A stretch of DNA of 49,541 nucleotides, from NCBI GenBank assembly GCA_025656505.1, contig JAHXHR010000008.1:1-49541 (forward strand), read 5' to 3'. Shown here piece by piece: positions 1 to 35,085 of this stretch. Positions within the stretch are counted from its first letter, which is position 1; every line of letters begins with the position of its first letter. The translations under genes and the position numbers were made by a program. This DNA is from Candidatus Thiodiazotropha sp. (ex Epidulcina cf. delphinae). Lineage in GTDB: Bacteria > Pseudomonadota > Gammaproteobacteria > Chromatiales > Chromatiaceae. A model generated the notes under the pieces. It did not search any database and was not told the DNA's origin. It saw only the letters and a list, made by a program, of their open reading frames with translations.

Positions 1-91
1 GGCCGGGGCATAATAGGCTGTCGTGACAAGCGAGGGCGAAAGGGGGACTGGGATGTCCCGTTTCGCATCCTGAGCGTCACGACACTCTTGT
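1..91. repeat. Structured repeat, copy 1 (cut by window edge)
   Basis: This segment aligns with 978-1066. Both begin GGCCGGGGC, share AGGCTGTCG, GCGAG, CTGGGATGTCC and end ACTCTTGT. The copies differ in sequence but keep the same fold. An outer stem pairs 19-27 with 76-84 (TGTCGTGAC/GTCACGACA). An inner stem pairs 36-41 with 61-66 (GCGAAA/TTTCGC) around a GGAC-TGGGAT-GTCC hairpin. Compensatory changes between the copies point to a functional RNA or single-stranded DNA structure rather than simple sequence duplication. The 5' part lies outside the window. The family was not identified. Confidence 0.6.
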
Positions 92-257
92 TTTCAAGTG
101 AATACTTTACAAAGCCAGTGTGCGGTTGTCCCTCTCTTTCGACAAGCCGTTGTAGGAGACTATTCCCTAACACGTGCCGCGCACGGTTGCCGAAACGGTG
201 CGTGTTATGAGGGGCTGGGTGACAGCCCGGCCAGTCATGCTTTAAATATTATGTTAT
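92..257. other. Non-coding, hairpin-rich leader upstream of orphan gene
   Basis: No convincing ORF is present. Two strong hairpins are visible. In the first, 123-130 pairs with 141-149 (CGGTTGTC/GACAAGCCG, one bulge). In the second, 168-179 pairs with 196-207 (12 bp including G-U pairs, TAACACG.../...CGTGTTA). A third short one is GGGCT...AGCCC around 215-231. The segment follows the structured repeat and precedes the ribosome binding site of the next gene, so it may be part of a longer structured element. Confidence 0.4.
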
Positions 258-299
258 ATGGGGATATGTAGGGTCGCTCAAATGAAGGAGGTGTTAGGA

Positions 300-800
300 A
301 TGGAAAAGAATGATAAAACCCTTTGCAATACCACGGCTGAAGTCACCGAAACATCATCTAAGGATGGAACGGCAACTCGGACTTGTTCAGGAAAATGTGG
401 AGATACAAAGGTTGACCCGATAGATTGCCCGCCTGGGCACTCTCCAATTTTGGATTGCACCAGTAATCCACCTACGATTAGCTGCTATGATCATCGAAAA
501 ATTGAATTCTCAAAGGAACAGCTTCGATTCTTGACTGAAGAAATTTCTGCGTCAATTCGTGGTGGCCAAGCAGCGGCACGAAATACAGTACGTGGCGCGG
601 CTGGGATTTTGGGAGATGACTGTTCAAAATTCAGTTTTGAGGTCAATGGAAATCAATATAGCTTTAGCAAAGCTGGGCATGAATCTTGGGTTGAAACAGT
701 CAAGTATTCCAAACGCCACAATACAGATGTTAATGTGGTTGACAATGGGATCAAGAATTCTGATGGGAAATTCAAACCTCTTGAAATTTATGATGCTTAA
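300..800 (+). CDS. Orphan cysteine-containing protein, 166 aa
   Basis: I do not recognise this protein. An ATG at 258 is in frame, but the ATG at 300 has an excellent AGGAGG at 286-291 with 8-nt spacing, so I start there. The N-terminal third is Thr/Ser/Asp-rich and carries scattered cysteines (TLCNTT, RTCSGKCGD, IDCPPGHSP, LDCTSN, ISCYDH). A CSGKC and a nearby DCPPGH pair could bind metal or form disulfides. There is no signal peptide or membrane segment. The C-terminal part contains NGNQYSFSKAGHESW, then ends EIYDA. The gene is visibly more AT-rich than the genes after 3781 and lies between two copies of a structured repeat, which suggests acquired DNA. Function unknown. Confidence 0.6.
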   Translation: MEKNDKTLCNTTAEVTETSSKDGTATRTCSGKCGDTKVDPIDCPPGHSPILDCTSNPPTISCYDHRKIEFSKEQLRFLTEEISASIRGGQAAARNTVRGAAGILGDDCSKFSFEVNGNQYSFSKAGHESWVETVKYSKRHNTDVNVVDNGIKNSDGKFKPLEIYDA

Positions 801-808
801 CTCTCTCG

Positions 809-1066
809 CTAACCGCCATGGAGAGCGAAGCGAAGGCGGTTAGTCCCCGGTAGGCGTAGGCGCGGGCGTATGATCGAAGGTGAGAGCGTAAGCGAACGCC
901 GTAGATCATATGCAAGCGCATCCGACACGCCGTCTAGCCATTTGAGGGAGTGCTGCGAAGCGGCACGGACGCAGGGCGGCCGGGGCCTTAAAGGCTGTCG
1001 CGTTGGCGAGTCGATTTTGGGGGCTGGGATGTCCCAAAATCTATCACGAGGTAGCGATACTCTTGT
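809..1066. ncRNA. Multi-stem structured RNA-like element (contains repeat copy 2)
   Basis: The segment folds as a nested series of stems. A 9-bp stem pairs 809-817 with 835-843 (CTAACCGCC/GGCGGTTAG). CCCCGG at 845-850 can pair long-range with CCGGGG at 980-985. Inside that lie TATGATC/GATCATA and GTGCTGC-GAA-GCGGCAC hairpins. The last part (978-1066) is the second copy of the repeat at 1-91, with stems 996-1001/1054-1059 and 1013-1019/1035-1041. The ORFs that can be read through it on either strand have no protein character. Strand of transcription is not certain; the order of stems and the downstream intron suggest plus. Size and layout recall transposon-associated structured RNAs such as HEARO/omega RNA, but no IscB-like gene is nearby and I cannot confirm the family. 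Confidence 0.5.
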
Positions 1067-1881: not shown

Positions 1882-2358
1882 TCATTGCTGCTTCATGACC
1901 TGATCCCAAAAACGATTCCAGAAACCCCGTTGCTCTTCTATCCGGTCAAGTCGCTGTTCGATGGTGTGCAAGGCGTTGGAGAGTTGCTCGTCAGTTGGTT
2001 GGGAAGAGGGACGCTGATTATCCATGATCAATTGCTCCAGCCATTCGCTGATCGTAATCCCCTGCAGATCCGCCGCCGCCTGGGTGATCCGTTTGGCTTC
2101 GGCTGAAACCTTTTCCAAGCTCCACTGCTGGGCCGGTCTTGTTTTATTCGTTTTCGTCGCCTTGGGTGGAGGTTTCTTGTGGGTTGCGGTGGGTTTGGTC
2201 TTGACCGTCTGGCTGGGATGGGCTTGAGCATTTTTTCTCTTCTTCTTGCCTTTCAGGGTAATAGGCCGCTGCGGCATGGTTGAGTAGTCGCGGGTTGGCC
2301 TTTTGGGCGGTTTTTTCGGGATGGGCGCAGGCCGCTTGTCGCTGGTATCATCTGCCAT
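1882..2358 (-). CDS. Lys/Pro-rich hypothetical protein, 158 aa
   Basis: Not assigned to a family. Roughly the first 85 residues are low-complexity and strongly basic (KKPPKRPTRD, KGKKKRKNAQ, KKPPPKATKT), which suggests a disordered nucleic-acid-binding tail. The C-terminal half is helical: SAEAKRITQAAADLQGITIS followed by EWLEQLI resembles the short helix-turn-helix-like block found near the N-terminus of some polar-organising and ribbon-helix-helix-like proteins. A predicted coiled coil follows (NALHTIEQRLDRIEEQRG). There is no signal peptide or membrane segment. It converges with the vapC remnant. The ribosome binding site is weak, so an internal start is possible, but the long uninterrupted frame and biased composition support a real gene. 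Confidence 0.6.
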   Translation of the reverse strand: MADDTSDKRPAPIPKKPPKRPTRDYSTMPQRPITLKGKKKRKNAQAHPSQTVKTKPTATHKKPPPKATKTNKTRPAQQWSLEKVSAEAKRITQAAADLQGITISEWLEQLIMDNQRPSSQPTDEQLSNALHTIEQRLDRIEEQRGFWNRFWDQVMKQQ

Positions 2359-3116: not shown

Positions 3117-3484
3117 GGGAGTCGGCCGGGCAGTCGCTGCACCGTTCAGCGGTGCGGAGGAAAGTCCGGGCTCCGGCGGGCAGGGTGCCAGGTAACGCCT
3201 GGGAGGCGCAAGCCTACGGAAAGTGCCACAGAAAATATACCGCCAGTGGTTTTTGACGACTGGTAAGGGTGAAAAGGTGCGGTAAGAGCGCACCGCACCG
3301 CTGGCAACAGCGGTGGCAGGGCAAACCCCACCTGGAGCAAGACCGAATAGAGGAACATACATACCTTCGGGTGAGTAGCGTGCGGCCCGCACGGTTCCCG
3401 GGTAGGTTGCTTGAGGTGTGCGGCGACGTACATCCCAGATGAATGACTGTCCTTGACAGAACCCGGCTTACAGGCCGACTCCCG
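3117..3484 (+). ncRNA. rnpB: RNase P RNA (type A)
   Basis: This is the catalytic RNA of ribonuclease P, which removes the 5' leader from precursor tRNAs. Conserved blocks match bacterial type A RNase P RNA: GAGGAAAGTCCGGGCTCC (CR-I), GGCAGGGTGCCAGGTAACGC, GGTAAGGGTGAAAAGGTGCG, GTAAGAGCGCACCG, and the 3' block GATGAATGACTGTCC...GACAGAACCCGGCTTA. P1 is closed by GGGAGTCGGCC (from 3117) pairing with GGCCGACTCCC (ending 3483). A T-run at 3492-3497 just past P1 probably serves as terminator. ORFs read across it, including one of 127 codons on the minus strand, are spurious. Length is normal for the class. Confidence 0.97.
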
Positions 3485-3633
3485 CATCCACTTTTTTCCA
3501 CTTGCCGATAGGCCCTCTGCAATCTCCATATTTTACTTTAGGTTACGGTGTCATCCCATTGTATTTCCAGTAGTAAATCTTGCCTGACATCCCTTTCGGT
3601 TATTGCGCCTAAGCTACTGAGCCATAAGACTTT

Positions 3634-34897: not shown

Positions 34898-34977
34898 CGT
34901 GAGTGAGCGCGGTTTTCGTTAAGTCATGCCCTTTTCCGAGCCTGGCGGATGATCGATCCGTTGCAGCGCTCCTCGGA
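34898..34977 (-). promoter_or_regulatory. SAH riboswitch in the ahcY leader
   Basis: Read on the minus strand, the leader starts CCGAGGAGCGCTGCAACGG, the highly conserved 5' half of the S-adenosylhomocysteine riboswitch. It continues with CCAGGCTCGG, which closes P1/P2 with CCGAG, and ends CGCGCTCACTCACG, which can pair with GAGCGC for the pseudoknot. The ahcY ribosome binding site (GGAG, 34890-34887) lies directly after it. SAH riboswitches are ON switches: SAH binding promotes expression of ahcY, and here probably metF. A TAAAAT -10 (complement of 34986-34991) would start transcription right at the element. Confidence 0.93.
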
Positions 34978-35085
34978 AGAGAGGGATTTTACTGAGTTTT
35001 GAGCTATAAGTTTTGAGTTGAATGAGTGCGCGAGGCGCACGCCTTTACTCGGAAGCTCAATAACTCAGAATTGCCCTGTAAGGGC

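Follow-up and report, generated by a model that had tools for sequence, protein, structure and literature searches.

A large, apparently unlisted family of short, strongly folded and protein-free mobile elements, seen from a contig of Candidatus Thiodiazotropha

Among described systems, the IS200/IS605 insertion sequences share with the element family reported here the lack of terminal inverted repeats and of target duplications, a target in the left flank, subterminal hairpins and a preference for the lagging-strand template; IS608 and ISDra2 are described in parts of PMC6006769 as targeting the lagging-strand template and recognising subterminal secondary structures. Unlike these insertion sequences, the element copies seen come without tnpA or tnpB, their target has one fixed base, a C at position -4, and their interior is a conserved, covarying fold. 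REP sequences mobilised by TnpA-REP (RAYT) likewise fold and do not encode their own transposase, and a very short C-first cleavage motif is shared as well, TnpA-REP cleaving at only CT or CA according to portions of PMC8266576, so that Y1 enzymes can use very short C-first motifs. REPs appear as 20-40 bp palindromes tagged GTAG or CGTC in excerpts of PMC3733652. The element, in contrast, is much longer, has a multibranched fold and shows no regular linkage to a RAYT gene. The REP tag is unpaired and outside the stem, whereas the GTAG-like letters after the 5' hairpin (P1) of the element lie within a stem. The HEARO/IscB omega-RNA (RF02033) is also a structured multi-copy unit of similar size (model of 211 positions), but its covariance model does not match the element, and most of the carriers tested yielded neither IscB nor TnpB. 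ERIC, QMITE and other bacterial MITEs resemble the element in being foldable and in occurring in dozens to hundreds of intergenic and intragenic copies, but ERIC and QMITE have terminal inverted or direct repeats, as parts of PMC10969869 and PMC5896051 report, and the element does not. The MRSC-65-2 mobile/repeat motif has, in passages of PMC11109978, a covarying structure, dozens of copies per genome and a possible action as DNA; it differs in being a single long stem with UYCCGG repeats, and we set it apart by that description only. Section 14 of that paper describes the “Soda Lake RNA” of Thioalkalivibrio, a large structured RNA that was discovered at the smtA locus.

The window analysed here is a stretch of 49,541 nt that comprises the entire contig C8 of the 3.43-Mb genome of Candidatus Thiodiazotropha sp. 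(ex Epidulcina cf. delphinae), with position 1 at the contig end. A first-pass annotation had proposed two copies of a structured, RNA-like repeat (1-91 and 978-1066) flanking an orphan gene. This two-copy unit is real, but it is larger than had been seen, and copy A has lost its remainder to the contig end; copy B stops at 1065 and not at 1066.

1..90, forward strand: copy A, the 3' part of one element, truncated by the contig end, with the terminus GACACTCTTG
300-800: orphan open reading frame of 166 aa between copies A and B
803..806, forward strand: CTCT, the tetranucleotide left of copy B, whose conserved C (-4) is position 803
807..1065, forward strand: copy B, a complete element of 259 nt, CGCTAACCGCC...GATACTCTTG
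809-817 with 835-843 (809..843), forward strand: P1, the 5' hairpin, with a conserved 17-nt loop
845-850 with 980-985 (845..985), forward strand: P2, which closes the inner multibranch
853-857 with 927-931 (853..931), forward strand: P3, 97.5% paired, 4 of 5 pairs changed on both sides
866-875 with 904-913 (866..913), forward strand: P4, 85.7% paired, 7 of 10 pairs changed on both sides
981..1065, forward strand: 3' domain (model R1) with P7, P8, a conserved GAG-rich internal loop and the terminal CTTG
996-1001 with 1054-1059, forward strand: P7, within the 3' domain
about 1013-1024 and 1031-1041, forward strand: arms of P8, with the loop TGGGAT

The annotated repeat sequences were all located at the positions given, with CTAACCGCC at 809-817 pairing with GGCGGTTAG at 835-843, and CCCCGG at 845-850 pairing with CCGGGG at 980-985. 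By eye, the two copies differ in their stems with pairing kept, TGTCGTGAC/GTCACGACA against TGTCGC/GCGATA in one stem and GCGAAA/TTTCGC against GATTTTG/CAAAATC in a second. Chance does not account for the repetition: in the whole window only two places match a covariance model built on the 3' domain, with E-values (1.8e-22 and 2.3e-20) that arise partly by construction, since the model seed includes copy B and L005, the copy on contig C27 that is 99% identical to copy A over 92 nt. Copies A and B represent different subfamilies. The sequence to the left of position 1, which the annotation had suggested inspecting, ends with the contig, and full relatives were found on other contigs of the same genome: four complete relatives of copy A lie on C89, C99, C27 and C79 (97-100% identity to the C89 copy), copy A belonging to their subfamily and being 99-100% identical to these four over 91-94 nt, and partial or diverged copies lie on C63, C34, C80, C95 and C11.

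Helices were named by eye first and then counted, the variation in P2, P5 and P6 being judged by eye only. P1 has 97.2% of its cells paired and 3 of 9 pairs changed on both sides. Across the 5' domain (16 sequences), 92.6% of cells are paired against 74.2% in shuffles, 14 of 24 pairs have changed on both sides, and covariation reaches 0.50 against 0.18 in shuffles and 0.05-0.11 in slid controls. The corresponding values for 31 distinct rows of the 3' domain are 91.5% against 75.0% shuffled, 12 of 17 pairs, and a covariation of 0.42, where shuffles gave 0.16 and slid controls 0.06-0.18, in an alignment made to the covariance model, which leans towards structure. A seed of 10 rows that was not fitted to structure exceeded all 500 shuffles in paired cells, double-changed cells and score; two of its five measures were not clearly above shuffles, double-changed pairs being reached by 40 and pair types by 435 of the 500. 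The compensatory base changes reported in the annotation are thus borne out by counts over both domains. RNAalifold gave a poor consensus on the plain alignment, in which P5-P7 are not correctly aligned between subfamilies. Folded as RNA by itself, copy B formed P1-P4, P7 and P8 (z -2.6), and P2 forms in the RNA minimum-energy fold but not in the DNA one; with DNA parameters, the top strand scored z -2.2 and the bottom strand z -1.3. On the top strand, G-U stood to A-C mismatches as 24 to 9 in A4 (half from one pair) and as 3 to 6 in A3, and wobble pairs do not decide between RNA and single-stranded DNA.

Near-full copies mostly measure 240-319 nt and typically read CGCT...CTTG. The fetched loci hold 231 matches to the 5' end, 157 of which pair with a 3' end and 74 of which do not, 64 of the latter lying within 600 nt of a locus edge. 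Paired ends, searched within 5 kb, were always less than 320 nt apart (one pair at 160-179 nt, the remainder at 240-319 nt), and therefore no copy has room for a transposase. Profile searches yielded 157 near-full matches and 6 3' ends without a 5' end. Both end and profile counts include places fetched repeatedly, and the near-full matches comprise 48 distinct sequences, with 26 representatives that share less than 95% identity, two of which (L027, containing Ns, and L143, cut) were omitted from alignment A1. An open reading frame of 89 codons can be read inside the element of Candidatus Sedimenticola endophacoides. Copies with GGAAT before P7 (L335, L336, L337 and L338) seem to end in ATCG, ATCT or TTCA and not in CTTG; guide and cleavage site might here covary in their pairing, as in IS608.

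A 22-base piece of the 5' hairpin occurs in at least 120 stretches of GTDB representative genomes, most of them from few genomes, and hosts among the matches listed are Candidatus S. endophacoides, tubeworm endosymbionts, S. hydrogenitrophicus, Thiocapsa, Thiorhodococcus and Chromatiales MAGs. A full copy in the cultured S. hydrogenitrophicus SB48 lies at L088:5259-5559. DNA matches were obtained in 11 of 56 relatives of the window's genome, that genome counted. The clam symbiont S. endophacoides (G057) carries at least 53 matches, at least 41 of them full-length, with 40 of 451 first-look candidates scored, and it provides 74 distinct flank pairs, some with shared flanks. In a survey of 369 genomes of the class, model R1 had matches at E <= 0.001 in 42, the own genome among them, spread over 32 genera and 27 families and including two single-contig genomes. 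The 369 genomes were drawn evenly from the class and searched under strict filters, no more than 12 candidates being scored in each; E-values are rough, some of the 42 genome matches being near 1e-4. Thirty loci came from this survey and 23 of them were read in sequence, many keeping ends and hairpins with little sequence shared, as judged by eye. Rfam gave no match to the element in the window and eight other loci, a keyword search of the literature found no published description of the family, and searches of plasmids, phages and E. coli returned no element match; IMG/VR held one full copy, one partial copy and three weak matches among 8 loci. Copies in S. endophacoides (L077, L124 and L139) stand in direct or inverted arrays with other repeated DNA, and several MAGs have many copies at contig ends.

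Direct evidence of insertion comes from empty sites. We tested 131 flank pairs, and for five insertions, located in three genomes, another genome has a counterpart that continues across the junction without interruption, at 72.7-94.7% identity.

L059 (tubeworm symbiont G059) against L284 (G058): 94.7%, no gap
L393 (G059) against L116 (G058): 94.4%, a 2-base gap off the junction
L097 against L376 (G059): 89.2%, a single gap that is the last base of a diverged CTTC end
L133 (G057) against L375 (G059): 80.8%, no gap
L140 (G057) against L375 (G059): 72.7%, no gap

A sixth flank match was a repeated domain within L109, and a seventh (L023 against L277) had too many gaps for use. None of the five empty sites has a target duplication, and the element has no terminal inverted repeats (CGCT... 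against ...CTTG). In the left flank, C occupies position -4 at 174 of 178 distinct sites with a CGCT start and at 6 of 9 with other starts, i.e. at 180 of 187 overall, counting matches that start at profile position 4 or earlier and come with a 20-nt flank; 118 of these 187 sites belong to just two subfamilies. C is uncommon at -5 (8 of 178, non-C in 170), and of the left-flank tetranucleotide only the C at -4 is fixed, its other three positions being biased at most. The same base was found at -4 in 14 of 14 distant copies from 14 genomes, after L320, L324 and L331 had been dropped as already counted, and it is already present in four of the five empty sites, one being without it. The right flank has no strong bias or motif in the 74 flank pairs of G057, some of which share flanks. 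When the flanks are joined, 38 of 85 sites (20 sense, 18 antisense) yield an open frame of 600 nt or more, and joins shifted by -1, -2, +1 and +2 gave 18, 30, 31 and 17 open frames; taken alone this test is only suggestive, and the empty sites are the stronger evidence of mobility. At the sites examined, the element family is shown to be mobile, inserting precisely and without target duplication three bases after a C. Descent from a DDE insertion sequence as an ordinary MITE would fit the size, the copy number and the absence of a gene, which agree with MITEs generally (parts of PMC10969869), but it is contradicted by the junctions, by the lack of terminal inverted repeats and by the lack of target duplication, and no longer parent with the same ends appeared among the end pairs in fetched loci; we consider it highly improbable. 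Integron attC sites were rejected, the GTTRRRY core being absent as judged from sequence only.

Insertions also have a preferred strand. Local GC skew is positive in element orientation at 88 of 121 copies: 40 of 55 in G057, 29 of 38 in G059, 9 of 11 in G360, 4 of 4 in G166, 4 of 5 in G064, 2 of 6 in G355 and 0 of 2 in G169. The sample comprised 11 of 12 listed copies in G360 (two via neighbouring stretches), 4 of 5 matches in G166, 5 of 12 in G064, 6 of 12 in G355, 2 of 5 in G169 and 38 copies in G059, the element being masked only in G057 and G059. After allowing for gene direction, the skew intercept is 0.032 in G057 (t 3.8, 52 sites) and 0.039 in G059 (t 4.6, 38 sites). In the same two genomes, antisense-to-gene insertions lean the same way, weakly (9 of 16 and 6 of 9); for noncoding flanks the figures are 27 of 42 (P 0.05) and 28 of 38 (P 0.02). 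Gene direction does not explain the skew bias. If leading strands are G-rich here, as they usually are in bacteria, the positive skew places the top strand on the lagging-strand template; with GC skew as no more than a proxy for replication direction, this is the template that the top strand prefers.

Compared with described transposons, the junctions, the flank rule and the strand bias look like what single-strand transposition of the IS200/IS605 or REP-like kind would leave. In the best model, to which we give an even chance, the elements are non-autonomous and are mobilised in trans, probably by an enzyme of the Y1 (HUH) kind. The element would move as single-stranded DNA with P1 as its 5' and P7/P8 as its 3' subterminal hairpin; a Y1 transposase of the IS200/RAYT kind would cut in trans after both cleavage sites, CNNN^ in the left flank and CTTG^ at the right end, and the freed strand would be joined into single-stranded DNA at the replication fork. 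Because the inner fold is also conserved, the strand or an RNA copy of it probably has to fold as a whole, for recognition or for a second function as RNA. The model draws on junctions, flank rule and strand bias and not on linkage. Against it stand the lack of a consistently linked Y1 gene, the contrary skew of G355 and G169, the weak lean of insertions antisense to a gene and the one empty site without the C. To our knowledge, a specificity of one base is looser than that of any IS200/IS605 target, and we know of no Y1 transposition that needs a conserved multibranched interior. The family might even be an undescribed class of mobile element, in which a protein-free folded nucleic acid, spread through a large part of a bacterial class, is inserted as a single strand at forks beside one fixed C by a conserved machine acting in trans, with an extra conserved RNA function in its interior; we hold this possible, if on balance doubtful.

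Mobility might instead act at the RNA level, a folded transcript inserting into single-stranded DNA at the fork by reverse splicing or RT priming, as in group II introns, with the help of a trans-acting factor. The covarying multibranched fold recovered by RNA folding of copy B and the group II intron that lies about 71 nt downstream of this copy would fit, and group II introns are also known for a lagging-strand bias. This route is nevertheless unlikely in our judgement: RVT_1 was not found in the carriers G057, G015 and G044 (G057 being a 96.5% complete MAG in Table 1 of PMC6461927), Rfam intron models do not match the element, G-U is not clearly favoured over A-C on the top strand, and insertions within genes have no sense bias (20 sense, 18 antisense). 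The element itself was also rejected as a group II intron. Such introns have a GTGYG start, a domain V and a reverse transcriptase in the genome, whereas the element starts with CGCT and matches no Rfam intron model, and RVT_1 was not found in three carriers. The same absence in G057, G015 and G044 speaks against the retron that the annotation had offered as an option.

The preferred model of movement in trans by a Y1 enzyme asks for a mobiliser elsewhere in the genome. PF01797 (Y1) was found in 12 of 13 genomes, i.e. in 8 of 9 carriers and 4 of 4 non-carriers, and the ninth carrier, G057, has a divergent Y1-like reading frame below the Pfam cut-off (17.8 bits against 23).

L112:78-800: divergent Y1-like transposase, weak PF01797 match
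L156:2630-3487, reverse strand: divergent Y1-like transposase, weak PF01797 match

Relatives of this divergent protein in the window's genus are about 340-370 aa long, with 25 matches in G007 that include fragments and RAYT cross-hits. Some genomes in which no element was found likewise have the G057 type of Y1, and no single Y1 subtype is common to all carriers examined. Elements lie in 3 of 30 Y1 loci, none with elements on both sides and one apparently because the element interrupts the RAYT gene, and at least one element is held by 5 of 18 wider stretches around Y1 matches. A tblastn search with four Y1 queries gave no match in the 30 loci of the class-wide survey. The linkage to IscB, TnpB or reverse transcriptase genes that the annotation had proposed to check was not found either, the 3' domain (model R1) occurring in 0 of 58 IscB, TnpB and Y1 loci, a count that excluded five known element loci (L216, L227, L235, L277 and L311), and RVT_1 not being found in three carriers.

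RAYT genes were considered as a linked partner and rejected, elements being near them only irregularly. In G001 (L277), a RAYT gene is followed by two elements, at 0.7 and 2.5 kb, and in G048 (L030) the distance between a RAYT gene and a 5' piece of the element is 0.8 kb. Four RAYT loci fetched from G059 are intact (L279-L282), and only one of them has an element, 3 kb off; Y1 fragments of this genome lie 0.4 kb (L293) and 6 kb (L294) from an element. Recurrent neighbour proteins belong to common housekeeping families, apart from RAYT, which recurs in five loci; the Y1 gene was the reason for fetching three of these. In G058, the symbiont of Lamellibrachia anaximandri, an element apparently sits inside a RAYT gene, the two parts (L284:6118-6756 and L063:1-309) ending on two contigs.

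With no mobiliser found inside or regularly beside the element, dispersal by a trans-acting recombinase or host factor that is not an HUH enzyme and recognises the folded strand deserves mention, the C at -4 across distant copies suggesting one conserved machine. We have no candidate for such a factor, however, and HUH enzymes already account for the junctions and the strand bias, which makes this reading unlikely.

On top of DNA mobility, the interior could serve as an omega-RNA-like guide for a nuclease encoded elsewhere. Some IS200/IS605 relatives combine Y1 transposition with structured RNAs, and the element has a large conserved interior and carries no protein; RRXRR (IscB) genes are present in two carriers, Thiocapsa and Thiorhodococcus. 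This function is decidedly unlikely, however, given that RRXRR is absent in 14 of 16 genomes and the TnpB domain in 6 of 7 (both including G000, G057, G058, G059, G044 and G015), that none of 5 RRXRR and 2 TnpB loci holds the 3' domain, that RF02033 has no match in the window or eight other loci, and that the right flank in G057 is without a strong motif. RF02033 was likewise missing from the own genome, to which little weight attaches as control genomes gave none either. The HEARO/omega-RNA option of the annotation fares poorly on these counts, IscB and TnpB not being found in most carriers tested. What stands of its reading is a structured multi-copy unit with compensatory changes and possibly a new class, and what is not supported is the guide RNA, the retron and the partnership with the orphan protein.

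The locus thus belongs to a large, apparently unlisted family of short, strongly folded and protein-free mobile elements that interrupt genes and coincide with contig ends. It opens a sharp question to experiment, namely what protein mobilises an element in which none is ever encoded and why the fold of the whole strand must be kept, and the combination of a one-base target with traceless joining would be of interest as DNA-insertion chemistry.

The 166-aa reading frame between copies A and B had no match in Pfam (tested with the start at 258), NCBIfam or PHROGs and no homologue in any fetched locus (best other match E 0.7). It is single-copy in the genome, and copy B begins six bases past its stop codon. 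Two unrelated insertions flanking it are the simplest reading, and the protein is probably not cargo, as had been suggested, given its single copy and the lack of homologues in the fetched loci. RVT_1 has no match listed on contig C8. Other features of the window include an intron, a riboswitch and an RNase P RNA, together with two matches below the cut-off.

1172-1394 (region 1137-1394 and beyond): group II intron RF02005, E 7.8e-51, downstream of copy B, with GTGCG at 1137, apparently its 5' end
1609-1809: fragment similar to a portion of a PIN domain, at a sub-threshold E of 0.014
1882-2358, reverse strand: reading frame of 158 aa that weakly matches NikA, a mobilisation protein, at a sub-threshold E of 0.019
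3118-3486: Class A RNase P RNA (RF00010), upstream of reading frames resembling, by eye, mraZ, mraW, ftsL and ftsI
34898-34980, reverse strand: SAH riboswitch (RF01057)
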